The notes beneath the pieces were generated by a model. The model made no database searches. It was not told where the DNA came from and saw nothing but the letters and a program-made list of their open reading frames with translations. From Candidatus Desantisbacteria bacterium CG1_02_38_46 (lineage in GTDB: Bacteria > Desantisbacteria > UBA1551 > UBA1559): a DNA stretch of 10,509 nt. Made by a program: the position numbers and the translations under genes. The stretch is from contig MNUO01000127.1 in NCBI GenBank assembly GCA_001871015.1, forward strand, positions 1 to 10,509, read 5' to 3'. This document shows, piece by piece, positions 1 through 10,144 of the stretch (within the stretch, counting starts at the first letter, position 1; each line of letters starts with the position of its first letter).

Positions 1-1
1 T

Positions 2-307
2 TATCAAATACAGTCCTACTCTGGTCATTGTGCTCAATCAATCGAACATTATGAAAGAGATTTTTCAAGAGTAGTCTATTTCTACACTGCTGGCAAATCA
101 GCAAGGGACATCCGGGTTTTAACAAATCAATCTGAAAAAGTTATCAAGGAATATATTAACCTTTACAAAAATTATATTAAGAATCCTGACTACAAAGAAC
201 CCTTAAAAAGAATGTTAGAGCGTTTTTATTCGTATTTAGAGGATGAAGGTAATAAAAAAAACTTTTCTGGGCATCCCATACTCTCCAGGGGGGAGGTCCA
301 GCAATGA
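2..307 (+). CDS. DUF1670-like helix-turn-helix protein, C-terminal end (cut by window start)
   Basis: An open frame enters from the left edge and runs 101 codons to a TGA at 305-307; its start lies outside the window. The visible part contains HCAQSIEHYERDFSRVVYF, then a second helical unit (TAGKSARDIRVLTNQSEKVIKEY). This pattern, roughly HS-EAIE-Y--DF-RV followed by I--LT--S---V-EY, is what I remember from the C-terminal half of DUF1670 proteins, whose function is unknown. It also aligns loosely with the downstream gene at 582-1286 (EQEISYLTDHHLSSISRYLRRYKQV), so the two look like diverged paralogues. The helical repeats look like helix-turn-helix units, so DNA binding is a reasonable inference. 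The final 20 or so residues (after EDEGNKKN) look unstructured. The stop overlaps the next ATG by 4 bases (ATGA), which implies translational coupling. The family call is from memory of the pattern, not a search. Confidence 0.7.
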   Translation, partial: YQIQSYSGHCAQSIEHYERDFSRVVYFYTAGKSARDIRVLTNQSEKVIKEYINLYKNYIKNPDYKEPLKRMLERFYSYLEDEGNKKNFSGHPILSRGEVQQ

Positions 308-585
308 TTAATAATTGCAAGAATAACAATGCCCAGCATTATAAGCCTCTGGAGAAGCAGAATTATCGCACCAAACTTAAGAATCTTCTCAAGGAAGAAT
401 TAAATATCTATGGTAAGCCTAAAACACTGGACCTACTTACCTCTGAAATAGAGCAACTTACACAAGAGTGTTTTCCTGCTAAGGATTATCTTCGTCCCTG
501 GCAAGTTCGGGTTCTTGTACCACGGGTTGAAGATAAGCCACATTTTGGTCAAAGTATGGAGGATACACAGATTACCTGTGTGTGA
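304..585 (+). CDS. DUF1670-like protein, N-terminal part (split gene, first frame)
   Basis: A 93-residue protein starting at ATG 304 behind a strong Shine-Dalgarno (GGAGGT, 292-297, spacing 6). Its ATG overlaps the TGA of the preceding frame. The body is a charged helical region (residues about 14-50) followed by LRPWQVRVLVPRVEDKPHFG and SMEDTQITCV. In full-length DUF1670 proteins as I recall them, a similar stretch (QV-WLAV---EKPG-GK-M-DT--V-V-LTL) runs without a break into the helix-turn-helix part. Here the frame stops at TGA 583-585, exactly where that continuation should occur, and the remainder lies in the next frame from 582. Removing one TG unit from the (TG)4 tract at 577-584 would join the two into ...ITCVTLNL. 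So this is either the first half of a naturally split gene, or a frameshifted copy. No catalytic motif is visible. Confidence 0.6.
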   Translation: MINNCKNNNAQHYKPLEKQNYRTKLKNLLKEELNIYGKPKTLDLLTSEIEQLTQECFPAKDYLRPWQVRVLVPRVEDKPHFGQSMEDTQITCV

Positions 586-1286
586 CACTTAACCTCTGCA
601 CCAAAGAGGACATAGATTCTTATTATCAAGGAGGAAAAAGGCTTATCTTCTTACAAAATAGATTAGCAAGAATGGCTAAAGAGGCAAAAGAACAGGGTGG
701 CCTACTTTCCCAGGCAGTAGCAGCAATTTTACTTGGAGTAAGACAAGAGACTGTTTCGCATCTGGTAGAGGACTACCAAAAGAGAACAGGTAAGATTATT
801 CCTTTACGAGGAATAGTTCATGACATTGGCCGCAGTCTAAGCCATAAGAAATGGATTGTTTCTCTCTATGAAAAGGGATACACTGAACAGGAGATTAGTT
901 ATCTTACTGACCATCATCTCTCCAGTATCAGCAGGTATCTTCGTCGGTATAAGCAGGTGAAAGAATTAATAAAAGAAATGAAGGAAGAACCAACAATTGA
1001 AAGGATTGCGAGGTTATTAAGAATAAGTGAATATTTAGCCAGAGAATATCTCCATTTACTTACTGAGCTTAAACAAATAACCTGGAACAACAAAGCAATA
1101 TTTAAAAGCAGACAAGAGTACAGAGAAGAAAAACTTGCTAAAGAGGATTCTAATTCTAAATCAGAAGAAAAAAACTTGCAGAAATGCCCTAAATTTCAAA
1201 GATCACAGGGATGGGATACATCTTTATACCCCCCTTCTTCCGAGGAGAAGTCTCTGATTCATAACGAGATTTTATCTACGGTTTAA
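582..1286 (+). CDS. DUF1670-like helix-turn-helix protein, C-terminal part (split gene, second frame)
   Basis: 234 codons from GTG 582 to TAA 1284-1286. Three helix-turn-helix-like units follow one another: residues about 40-65 (QGGLLSQAVAAILLGVRQET), about 93-125 (YEKGYTEQEISYLTDHHLSS) and about 130-165 (EPTIERIARLLRISEYLARE). Between the first two lies IIPLRGIVHDIGRSLSHK, which matches the P-RG-V-DIG-G-(S/T)HK signature I associate with DUF1670. After about residue 170 the tail is charged, low in complexity and rich in K, E and S, and is unlikely to be folded. The start has no Shine-Dalgarno at a usable distance; the nearest GGAGG (558-562) is 19 bases upstream. Translation would therefore depend on termination-reinitiation at the GTGA overlap or on a frameshift. 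A DNA-binding regulator or mobile-element protein is the likely role; the real function is unknown. Confidence 0.65.
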   Translation: MTLNLCTKEDIDSYYQGGKRLIFLQNRLARMAKEAKEQGGLLSQAVAAILLGVRQETVSHLVEDYQKRTGKIIPLRGIVHDIGRSLSHKKWIVSLYEKGYTEQEISYLTDHHLSSISRYLRRYKQVKELIKEMKEEPTIERIARLLRISEYLAREYLHLLTELKQITWNNKAIFKSRQEYREEKLAKEDSNSKSEEKNLQKCPKFQRSQGWDTSLYPPSSEEKSLIHNEILSTV

Positions 1287-1287
1287 G

Positions 1288-1315
1288 TTGACTTTTTTTG
1301 AAAATCTGGTAGAAT
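1288..1315 (+). promoter_or_regulatory. Sigma-70-type promoter for hicBA
   Basis: TTGACT (1288-1293) and TAGAAT (1310-1315) are separated by 16 bases, with an extended -10 TGG at 1307-1309. It begins two bases after the stop of the DUF1670-like gene and is followed by an untranslated leader of roughly 105 bases before hicB. It gives the toxin-antitoxin pair transcription independent of the upstream genes. Confidence 0.6.
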
Positions 1316-1341
1316 GATATTATAAAAAAAGAGGGCAGTAC

Positions 1342-1355
1342 AGGGCATTTGCCCT
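1342..1355 (+). other. Small hairpin in the hicBA leader
   Basis: AGGGC (1342-1346) and GCCCT (1351-1355) form a 5-bp GC-rich stem with a 4-base loop. A second AGGGC at 1332-1336 could pair with the same right arm instead, giving two mutually exclusive folds. It lies 27 to 40 bases after the -10 box, inside the predicted leader. There is no following T-tract, so it is not a standard terminator. An operator or translational control element is possible, but unproven. Confidence 0.35.
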
Positions 1356-1427
1356 TATATAAAAATCAGATTAAAATAATGGAAATTGCTGAGGTTAATG
1401 AAAAAATTTTCTAAGGAGGGGGGAAGT

Positions 1428-1634
1428 ATGGATGAAATAAGTTTTGTTATTTGGAAGGAAGGGAGATACTATGTATCTCAATGTTTGAATGTTGATGTTT
1501 CTTCCTTTGGAAAAAACGTTGAGGAAGCGAAAAAGAATTTACGAGAAGCAGTTGAACTTTATTTTGAAAAAGAAAATATAACACTACAAAAAATTGATGA
1601 TATTATTGTGGGTAAGGAAAAAGTTAATGCCTAA
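1428..1634 (+). CDS. hicB: HicB-family antitoxin (short form)
   Basis: 68 residues. HicB proteins neutralise the HicA mRNA interferase by binding it, usually through a partial RNase H-like fold. The sequence has the typical HicB pattern: beta strand ISFVIWKEGRYYVSQCLNVDV, then SSFGKNVEEAKKNLREAVELYFE, which matches the G-(T/N)--EA--N--EA-ELY-E helix of the family. The protein ends soon afterwards (KIDDIIVGKEKVNA), so the C-terminal helix-turn-helix or ribbon-helix-helix DNA-binding domain of longer HicB proteins is absent. The ATG at 1428 is chosen because AGGAGG begins at 1414 at a good distance and the family fold begins here; an in-frame TTG at 1386 would add 14 residues that do not fit. 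The gene precedes hicA and overlaps it by 8 bases, so antitoxin is made first. Without a DNA-binding domain, autoregulation at its promoter would need another mechanism. Confidence 0.88.
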   Translation: MDEISFVIWKEGRYYVSQCLNVDVSSFGKNVEEAKKNLREAVELYFEKENITLQKIDDIIVGKEKVNA

Positions 1635-1848
1635 ATTATTTTCTTCAAAAGAAATAGAACATGTGCTCAAAAGACTTAATTTTAAATTTGTTTCTCAAAA
1701 AGGCTCTCATGGAAAATTCAAGAACGAAGAAGGGACAATTGCTATTCTACCAATGAATAAAAAAGAAATTCCTCATGGGACCCTGAGAAGTATTTTAAGA
1801 CAAATGGGAATAAACTATGATGAATTTATAAAAATCTTAGAAGATTAA
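1627..1848 (+). CDS. hicA: HicA-family toxin, mRNA interferase
   Basis: 73 residues, the usual HicA size. HicA folds like a double-stranded RNA-binding domain and cleaves mRNA, using a conserved histidine. Visible features: the N-terminal helix SSKEIEHVLKRLNFKFVSQ, the catalytic GSHGKF segment with His28, a beta strand EGTIAILPMN, and the C-terminal PHGTLRSILRQMGINYDEF, which matches the typical P-GTLR-IL-Q-G-----F ending. The start is ATG 1627, inside the end of hicB (8-base overlap), with AAGGA at 1614-1618 as Shine-Dalgarno. An in-frame upstream ATG at 1594 would add 11 residues from within hicB and is less likely. All expected key residues are present, so the toxin looks intact. It forms one operon with hicB. 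Confidence 0.9.
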   Translation: MPKLFSSKEIEHVLKRLNFKFVSQKGSHGKFKNEEGTIAILPMNKKEIPHGTLRSILRQMGINYDEFIKILED

Positions 1849-7012: not shown

Positions 7013-10000
7013 ATGTTAAGATCATATTTAAAGCAAATTTTTGAAGTTACTAATCGTGGAGATGCCAGAGAGGAAAGTTATTATTCCGCCCTTGAGAGAT
7101 TACTAAACGAATATACAGAATCGGTGGGTAAAAAAGGTATCCATATAACAACTCTGCCCAAGAAGACCGAATCAGGCAATCCTGATTTCAGAATCTGGGA
7201 TGGCAAGCAGCATATCGTTGGATATATCGAAGCAAAAGACCCATCAACAGAATATTTAGACCAGGTAGAGGACACCGAACAGTTAAAGCGTTACAGGAAT
7301 ACCTTCCCAAATGTAATTTTAACCAACTTTTTTGAATTCAGGCTTTATCGTAATGGTGAATCAATAGACAGAGTTTGTATTGCAAGGTCTTTTATTATCA
7401 AAAAACTTAAAACTATCCCACCGGTTGAAAAAGAGGAAGATTTTTTAAAATTGCTTGAAAAATTCTTTTCTTTTTCCTTGCCCAAAATTTATTCTGCTAA
7501 AACCCTTGCAGTAGAATTAGCGAAGAGGACACGCTTCTTAAAAGACGAAGTTATTGCAGAAGAATTTAAGGAAGAAGAAAATACTGGCAAAGGTTTCATT
7601 CTGGGATTTTACGAGGCATTTAAAAAATATCTTATAAATAATCTTTCTAAAGAGGACTTTACCGACCTTTATTCACAGACAATTGCATACGGACTTTTTG
7701 TTGCCCGCACCCGTTCAGAAAATGGTTTTAATAGAAAACTTGCATATGACAATATTCCCCACACTATCGGAATTTTAAGAGAGGTTTTCAGATTTATTTC
7801 TCTTGAAGACCCGCCCAGACAAATTGAAAGTATTATAGACGATATTTCAGAAATTCTGGCAGTTACCGATGTAAATAAAATTTTTCACAAGTATTTTCAT
7901 GAAGGAAAAGGAAAGGACCCTGTTGTCCATTTCTATGAGACATTTTTAACTGAATACGACCCAAAAGCAAGAGAGAAGAGAGGCGTCTATTACACTCCTG
8001 AACCAGTAGTTTCTTATATTGTTCACTCTCTTCACATTATTCTAAAGGAATATTTCAATAGAAAAGATGGTTTTGCAAATGGGTCAGTTACTGTATTAGA
8101 CCCCGCAGCTGGTACCCTTACATTTTTAGCAGAAGCATCAAAACTTGCCGTAGAGGAGTTTATTAAAAAATATGGTGGCGGGGGAAAAGAAAATTTTATC
8201 AAAGAGCATATTCTCAAAAATTTCTATGCTTTTGAACTGATGATGGCACCATATGCAGTGGGGCATTTAAAAATGGCTTTTCTTCTTGAAGAGCTCGGTT
8301 ACAGACTTAAAGGTAATGATAGGTTTAACCTGTATTTGACAAACACTTTGGAAATGGAAGAACTTCCTGAAACACAACTTCCCGGCATGGCTTCTCTTTC
8401 TGAGGAATCACACTTAGCAGGAAGGGTTAAAAAAGAAAGACCAATTCTGGCAATACTTGGGAATCCGCCATATTCAGGGCATTCCTCCAATATCGGTGAA
8501 TGGATATCAGAAGAAATTAAGGTGTATTATCAGGTTGATGGTAAGCCTCTTGGAGAAAGAAATCCCAAGTGGCTACAGGATGATTATGTTAAATTTATCC
8601 GTTTTGCCCAGTGGAAAATAGACCAGGCAGGAGAAGGAATTTTGGGCTTTATAACCAACCATAGTTATCTTGATAATCCTACTTTTAGAGGAATGCGCCA
8701 GTCCTTAATGAATAGTTTTAACGAAATTTATATTCTGGACCTGCATGGCAACAGTCTTAAAAAAGAAAAATGCCCCGATGGTTCTAAAGACGAAAATGTT
8801 TTTGATATCCAGCAGGGAGTTGCCATTGCTCTTTTTATAAAAAAGAAAGATGGCAAAAAAGATTGCAAAGTATATCATTCAGAAATTTGGGGATTGCGCG
8901 AGAGTAAATATGAATGGCTCTTAGAGAAAGACATAAAAATGACGAAGTGGAAGCAAATATCCCCAAAATCCGAATTTTATCTTTTTATTCCCAGAGAAGA
9001 AAAACTCTTGAGAAAATATGAGAATTATTTAAAAATAACTGATATTTTTCCAGTGAATAGTGTAGGTATAATTACCGCGAGGGACGATTTTGCAATTGAT
9101 TTTGATAAAGAAACACTTAAGCGTAGAATAGACCTTTTCTGTAATGAAAAAATGTCAGATGAAATCATTGCCAAGACTTTTCATTTTGAAAATAAAATGG
9201 ACTGGTTAAAACAGGCCCGTGAAGAAGTCAAGAAAGATGAAAGTTGGGGAAATTCTATTACTCAAATTCTATATCGGCCATTTGATACCCGTTGGATTTT
9301 TTATAATGATGCAGTTATCGAACGTTCTCGTAAAGAAGTAATGCGTCATATGCTACAGGAAAATTTATCATTATTACTTACTAATCGACATTCCGTAGGT
9401 GACTATAACGATGTTTTTATTGGTGACAAACTTATCGAAGGACATGTTTTGTCAGGTGCATTAGGTATTAGTTATGTTTTTCCTCTTTATCTTTATCCAG
9501 AAAAAAAGAATCCTGGAAAACAATCTTCAGGAACTATTATGATGCTTTTTGAACCGGAGGTAGACTACAAATCAAAAAAACCAAACTTATCTGAAAGTCT
9601 ATCAAGGGTATTGAACGATACATTTAAAAAAGTAATTAGTCCTGAAGAAATTTTTTATTACATTTATGCAGTGCTGTATTCCAATATCTATAGTACAAAA
9701 TATGCCGAATTTTTAAAAATAGATTTTCCACGAATCCCATTTACAAAAGACTATAAACTTTTTAGCAAGATGGTTAAATATGGAAAAAGACTGACTGATT
9801 TGCATTTACTTAAATCGCAGGAACTTAATCCGCCAGTCGCCAAACTGCAAGGAAAAGGTAATAACAAGATTGAAAAAGTAAAATATGACCAAAAACAAAA
9901 AAGAATTTATTTCAATCAAAGCCAATATTTCGAAGGAATCAAAAAGGAAGTTTGGGAATATCAAATCGGCGGCTATCAAGTCTGTGATAAATGGCTGAAA

Positions 10001-10144
10001 GATAGAAAAGAAAGACCTCTATCGCTTGAAAATATTAAACATTACTGTCAAATCGTCACTGCTTTACAGCGAACAATCAAAATCCAAAAATCAATCGACA
10101 AAATCTATCCCGAAGTCGAAAAAGAAATTATAGAGAATATCTAA
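7013..10144 (+). CDS. Single-chain restriction-modification enzyme: PD-(D/E)xK nuclease plus N6-adenine methyltransferase (Type IIG/ISP-like)
   Basis: 1043 residues. Residues about 1-135 look like a PD-(D/E)xK nuclease: GNPDFRIWDG (Asp58), then GYIEAKDP (Glu73, Lys75). Residues about 150-310 are a helical linker. A gamma-class N6-adenine methyltransferase follows: RGVYYTPEPVVSYIV (323-337), SAM motif I DPAAGTLTFL (363-372) and catalytic motif IV NPPY (484-487). Residues about 620-1043 resemble the Type ISP C-terminal specificity region (GLRESKYEWLLE, ITARDDFAIDFDKETLKRR, RPFDTRWIFYNDAVIERSR, VMRHML). No helicase is present between nuclease and methyltransferase, unlike LlaGI-type ISP enzymes. 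It would both methylate and cut DNA at its own, unknown, site. ATG 7013 has GGAG at 7004-7007 and lies two bases after the glmS stop, so it is probably co-translated with glmS. No separate specificity subunit or second methyltransferase is visible. The frame is intact. Confidence 0.88.
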   Translation: MLRSYLKQIFEVTNRGDAREESYYSALERLLNEYTESVGKKGIHITTLPKKTESGNPDFRIWDGKQHIVGYIEAKDPSTEYLDQVEDTEQLKRYRNTFPNVILTNFFEFRLYRNGESIDRVCIARSFIIKKLKTIPPVEKEEDFLKLLEKFFSFSLPKIYSAKTLAVELAKRTRFLKDEVIAEEFKEEENTGKGFILGFYEAFKKYLINNLSKEDFTDLYSQTIAYGLFVARTRSENGFNRKLAYDNIPHTIGILREVFRFISLEDPPRQIESIIDDISEILAVTDVNKIFHKYFHEGKGKDPVVHFYETFLTEYDPKAREKRGVYYTPEPVVSYIVHSLHIILKEYFNRKDGFANGSVTVLDPAAGTLTFLAEASKLAVEEFIKKYGGGGKENFIKEHILKNFYAFELMMAPYAVGHLKMAFLLEELGYRLKGNDRFNLYLTNTLEMEELPETQLPGMASLSEESHLAGRVKKERPILAILGNPPYSGHSSNIGEWISEEIKVYYQVDGKPLGERNPKWLQDDYVKFIRFAQWKIDQAGEGILGFITNHSYLDNPTFRGMRQSLMNSFNEIYILDLHGNSLKKEKCPDGSKDENVFDIQQGVAIALFIKKKDGKKDCKVYHSEIWGLRESKYEWLLEKDIKMTKWKQISPKSEFYLFIPREEKLLRKYENYLKITDIFPVNSVGIITARDDFAIDFDKETLKRRIDLFCNEKMSDEIIAKTFHFENKMDWLKQAREEVKKDESWGNSITQILYRPFDTRWIFYNDAVIERSRKEVMRHMLQENLSLLLTNRHSVGDYNDVFIGDKLIEGHVLSGALGISYVFPLYLYPEKKNPGKQSSGTIMMLFEPEVDYKSKKPNLSESLSRVLNDTFKKVISPEEIFYYIYAVLYSNIYSTKYAEFLKIDFPRIPFTKDYKLFSKMVKYGKRLTDLHLLKSQELNPPVAKLQGKGNNKIEKVKYDQKQKRIYFNQSQYFEGIKKEVWEYQIGGYQVCDKWLKDRKERPLSLENIKHYCQIVTALQRTIKIQKSIDKIYPEVEKEIIENI

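Follow-up and report, generated by a model that had tools for sequence, protein, structure and literature searches.

We suggest that the window, by which we mean the whole stretch of 10,509 nucleotides analysed here, carries the right half of an element resembling an insertion sequence (IS), and that the two proteins encoded by this element, both members of the DUF1670 family (PF07900) and called A and B below, probably act together as a two-subunit complex that binds the element ends and carries out transposition. A and B are paralogues and are the only genes of the element, which is about 1.7-1.9 kb long. Its mobility is well supported. This explanation would turn a family of uncharacterised function into a mobile-element gene pair with a testable role. 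A literature search gave no mention of DUF1670 or PF07900, and the IS-like element is undescribed in the literature searched; ISfinder may list the same element under another name.

The preliminary description of this DNA had reported three consecutive frames at the left edge of the window, joined by 4-base overlaps of ATGA (304-307) and GTGA (582-585). The frames and overlaps are present (Table 1), but profile comparisons indicate that the frames make up two genes, not three separate ones. The proposed likeness to DUF1670 was confirmed by a PF07900 profile search, in which the first and third frames passed the Pfam gathering cut-off of 25 bits and the full A protein scored 177.9 bits. The first frame scored 103 bits against a profile of A genes and still 31 bits against a B-profile built from six other B genes. 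The pattern common to A and B is therefore a sign of true homology, and the gene duplication that had been suspected from it is borne out. The middle frame had no match in a Pfam search, and BLASTP of 304-582 against the B protein of G058 gave none either; the N-terminal part of B was matched to B of G404 by BLASTP (E 8e-12), and the middle frame scored 43 bits against the B-profile, compared to 6.3 for the best of 1000 shuffles. The third frame scored 127 bits. Because the two profile matches abut exactly, the two frames are pieces of one B gene.

In G058, G137, G175, G386, G391 and G404, B is a single uninterrupted frame. Compared to these intact genes, B in the window appears to be broken by a change of frame at the junction of its two parts, and the window copy of the element is probably inactive or crippled. 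It is conceivable that B is intact in effect, with stop-start reinitiation or programmed frameshifting at 582-585 leading to a regulated full-length or two-part protein, which would be compatible with the transposon explanation. The overlap of the stop with a GTG start at the junction and the exact meeting of the profile halves would suit such a process, and frameshifting is common in IS elements. We nevertheless regard it as unlikely, because each of the six other B genes has one frame. The junction of A with B is of the translational-coupling type, as had been described, and the ATGA overlap is found in the window, G175, G391 and G404, with longer overlaps elsewhere. An extension to the left had been proposed as a way to recover the whole upstream gene. 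A full A gene (279 aa) does end contig C59 of the same genome (G000), with 94% identity by blastn over about 268 bases (window 1-267). C59 and the window may represent a single locus split in two, with differences between strains, or else two separate copies.

Table 1. Features of the window discussed in the text.
Feature	Position	Strand	Basis and remarks
Gene A (DUF1670), C-terminal 101 codons	2..307	+	PF07900 32.4 bits; remainder beyond contig edge
Gene B (DUF1670), N-terminal part	304..585	+	B-profile positions 3-90; ATG overlaps A stop
Gene B, C-terminal part, other frame	582..1286	+	PF07900 132.2 bits; B-profile positions 90-248; open frame 537-1286
74-bp right-end block	1288..1361	.	73/74 identical to a block on C72 beside oriC/dnaA, same genome
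Right terminal inverted repeat, AGTACAGGGCATTTGCCCTTATATAA	1337..1362	.	Score 18.5 vs 13.5 for best of 100 shuffles; partner (23/26) upstream of A on C59
HicB-like antitoxin gene	1428..1634	+	UPF0150 and HicB_lk matches weak, below cut-off; adjoins HicA; outside element
HicA toxin gene	1627..1848	+	PF07927 E 1.3e-16; outside element

The pairing of A with B is recurrent. We searched 98 genomes with PF07900, later 386 genomes, and additionally 17 genomes of one small phylum, and found DUF1670 in 5, 10 and 9 of them, respectively. A control search also detected the family in Methanosarcina acetivorans. Tandem A-B pairs were present in ten genomes (G000, G019, G058, G137, G175, G274, G386, G391 with two loci, G399 and G404) and a decayed pair in G198, while the remaining loci were fragments or single genes. 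The two outcomes that had been named as speaking against the pair, no match between A and B and no recurrent adjacency, were thus not obtained. The element occurs in numerous poorly studied bacteria, and unrelated phyla have the order of A and B and their overlapping ends in common. In the tree, the B genes formed one clade (100/97, 99% of bootstraps) with the A genes on the opposite side. As this separation is accompanied by persistent linkage, the duplication must be old and the pair has been retained together; two ancient clades kept together make it plausible that A and B hetero-oligomerise. The single-gene forms of G028, G401 and G402 were an A-type offshoot in the tree. Single-gene A-type copies at L086, L087 and L017 have a different end palindrome (GTATGTGGT..ACC), with good support only in G028 (score 14, best shuffle 13). 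The pair of G019 (L016) is longer (390 and 442 aa); its A gene includes a partial additional DUF1670 unit, and its B gene has about 150 additional N-terminal residues with no Pfam match. Several DUF1670 copies were decayed or located at contig ends, as repeats are. No match was found by tblastn in plasmid and phage collections and no confirmed relative in the viral contigs searched, and one scan of genome contigs recovered only the known G019 locus.

To locate the borders of the element, the DNA that precedes A was compared with the reverse-complemented DNA that follows B. Near-palindromic inverted repeats with a core of CAnnTG surround all six pairs for which both flanks were readable (G000, G058, G137, G386, G399 and G391); those of G000 are TTATATCAGGGCAAATGTCCTCTACT and TTATATAAGGGCAAATGCCCTGTACT, and those of G058 are GTATCATTTGACCCCATGAGG and GTATCATATGACCCCAGGAGG. 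When each locus was subjected to 100 dinucleotide shuffles, none reached the real score in G000, G058 and G137, and 2, 2 and 4 did so in G386, G399 and G391, respectively, the repeats of which are marginal if each is taken singly. Swaps of left and right ends between loci lowered the score, so that the own right end was the best partner, except for the left end of G386, which paired better with that of G058; the two genomes are close relatives. Single-ended matches were obtained in G274, G198 and G175. The left repeat of G058, G386 and G137, as read from the sequence, includes TTGACC, followed about 17 bases on by a -10-like box, and in some copies the -35 box predicted for the promoter of A and the left repeat overlap. 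In the window the outer edge of the element lies at about 1355-1361. Since the ends in G000 are on different contigs (C59 and C107), one intact copy in this genome is not proven.

The block of 74 bp at the right end has its counterpart on C72 beside dnaA, where DUF1670 is absent; the C72 block is either the relic of a right end or a promoter block that both places share. The preliminary description had pointed to a toxin-antitoxin system next to the pair. HicBA does adjoin the element, but judging from its position outside the right inverted repeat it is only a neighbor and no part of it. A sigma-70-like promoter (TTGACT..TAGAAT, 1288-1315) lies inside the element end and is directed towards hicBA. 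Farther along the window, 7013-10144 encodes a Type ISP restriction-modification protein (Type_ISP_C E 6e-90, N6_Mtase). A match on G000:C71 across the joined flanks was only a similar promoter, and TTATAT as a target duplication in G000 was dropped as unsafe, since C72 has TTATAT too.

Signs of movement come from G058. The pattern GTATCANNTGACC occurred five times in this genome, compared to none for the reversed control: two occurrences are the ends of a complete copy, two belong to further copies and one is in a coding region and chance-like. The further copies are identical to the complete copy inward (121/121 and 95/95 nt) and differ outward, so that G058 holds at least three dispersed, near-identical copies in different surroundings. 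After the identical ends, exactly 100 N follow in both further copies; these runs resemble gaps in the assembly, which a repeat would be expected to cause, although N may also mark masked stretches. A paralogous empty site was found at G058:C1:514787-515169, where both flanks of the complete copy align as one continuous stretch. The empty site reads GGTGTTG[ATGAA]GTAATA and the filled one [ATGAA]-element-[ATGAA]; since ATGAA stands on both sides when filled and once when empty, insertion was accompanied by a 5-bp target duplication. According to PMC4150552, the convention is to infer a new DNA transposon where target duplications flank terminal inverted repeats. The duplication was demonstrated against an empty site at this one site only. 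None was seen at the insertion in G386, and we claim none for G137, where two readings were equally good. The copy on G391:C12 is located in an arm of another repeat; an element-free version of this repeat is on C95, but the arms vary, and no duplication is claimed there either. The repeat in G391 is about 270 bp long with long inverted arms (TTGACAACGAACTTTTGCAGGAAA), occurs at L084 (5900-6300), L085 (5540-5810) and L121, hosts one DUF1670 element and has relatives in G403 and G028. In the same repeat context, L084 has a solo outer half of the right repeat at 7100-7140, possibly a scar of excision or recombination.

Five element ends in four genomes (two copies in G058, and G386, G274 and G198) were at the 3' end of a gene whose product carries a C-terminal sorting tail of type IX secretion (T9SS; TIGR04183). 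The end abuts the stop codon in G058, G386 and G274 and lies in the last codons in G198. Four of the five target genes were above the TIGR04183 cut-off and the fifth scored 21.4 against a cut-off of 23. For the complete copy of G058, the unoccupied context according to the other flank is ATGAA-GTAA, and the element end gives ATAG, by which the Lys-stop is restored. No sorting-tail target was found at the element ends of G000 and G137. In bacteria with a T9SS, insertion may thus favor the last codon of sorting-tail genes, with the element end supplying a new stop, and the 3' ends of these genes would be a harmless, multi-copy target site. Insertion at such stop codons would be a neat safe-harbour strategy.

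The A protein was modelled by AlphaFold together with 18 relatives (mean pLDDT 84, pTM 0.52). The model has a small N-domain in the order helix-helix-strand-strand-helix, a winged helix-turn-helix (HTH) besides two other HTH-like units, and a long helix at the C-terminus. This agrees with the repeated HTH units that had been read from the sequence. In PDB fold searches, HTH proteins matched the middle and C-terminal parts. The N-domain alone resembled HU/IHF weakly (Z of 4.9 at most with high rmsd; best IHF Z 4.8, rmsd 13), with no sequence match to HU/IHF. The most conserved residues are D89, R108, H188 and those of a loop, R153-G154-D158-H165-K166, part of which has low model confidence. No nuclease or recombinase domain was recognized by Pfam, NCBIfam, PHROGs, PADLOC or a PDB sequence search, and no catalytic domain of a transposase by Pfam, NCBIfam, PHROGs or fold searches. 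The fold searches, run with the complete model of A and with its N-domain, gave no nuclease fold and nothing convincing besides HTH and the weak HU/IHF resemblance.

We propose that A and B, acting together, would use their HTH domains to bind the inverted repeats, and that the HU-like N-domains would bend and pair the element ends. Because the left repeat overlaps a predicted -35 box in some copies, binding there would also repress the expression of A and B themselves. The pair would then perform the staggered (5-bp) cut-and-insert reaction through an unrecognized site, or recruit an enzyme for it. We infer that DUF1670 proteins catalyse transposition. The more far-reaching proposal, that A and B suffice by themselves as a transposase of a novel type, HTH-rich and HU-like, without a known nuclease fold and targeting T9SS cargo genes at their stop codons, is put forward tentatively, as a possibility that we favor less than the two-subunit complex itself. 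If A and B are a transposase, they would represent a new way to move DNA without a recognized catalytic fold.

The same observations could be read differently. A and B might be passengers of a non-autonomous element that an unrelated transposase moves in trans, merely regulating themselves through the repeats. The lack of a recognized catalytic domain, the low copy number of the element per genome and an architecture of HTH units only, which suits repressors, are consistent with this reading. When G058, G386 and G198 were scanned with the pattern, the real-looking ends all belonged to DUF1670 elements, the others were chance-like and no different element with the same ends was found. The repeats also vary by lineage while the A-B pair persists, which fits A and B recognizing their own repeats. 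We therefore consider passengers to be rather improbable and, because no different element shared the ends in the scanned genomes, favor cutting and joining by A and B themselves over recruitment.

The preliminary description had left the choice between a mobile and a regulatory module. Its mobile part has held, and the regulatory one is less likely, given that inverted repeats, identical copies at scattered places and an empty site were all found. As a regulatory operon, A and B would be transcription factors, and the palindromes would be operators before A and before the downstream gene, which is hicBA in the window. In G000 a sigma-70-like promoter adjoins each palindrome and the right palindrome is 66 nt before hicB, and operators are typically palindromic. 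In G058, G386 and G198, however, a convergent gene ends at the right palindrome; the neighbor genes vary between genomes, and identical dispersed copies and an empty site with a 5-bp duplication also speak against operators. We hold this explanation to be very improbable, and the transposition complex remains the preferred one.

A and B both belong to PF07900 above its cut-off. Pfam assigns no function to this family, to which the present analysis adds the pairing, the inverted repeats and the mobility. The element is similar to two-ORF insertion sequences with terminal inverted repeats, such as IS21, IS3 or ISA1214, in that it measures 1.7-1.9 kb, has two genes that overlap, is bounded by inverted repeats, duplicates a short stretch of its target and overlaps a promoter with its left end. 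It differs from them in that both genes are paralogues of a single HTH-rich family, without a recognized DDE, HUH, serine, tyrosine or DEDD catalytic domain. The N-domain of A shares with HU/IHF the order of helices and strands and a conserved turn of the Pro-x-Gly-Lys type between the strands, but has one strand fewer, weak structural scores and no match in sequence. In PMC10132070, the IS1202 family is described as target-specific insertion sequences near dif sites. The DUF1670 element resembles this family in that its end always falls at one position of a conserved sequence, and differs from it in targeting the 3' ends of T9SS sorting-tail genes and in encoding other proteins.
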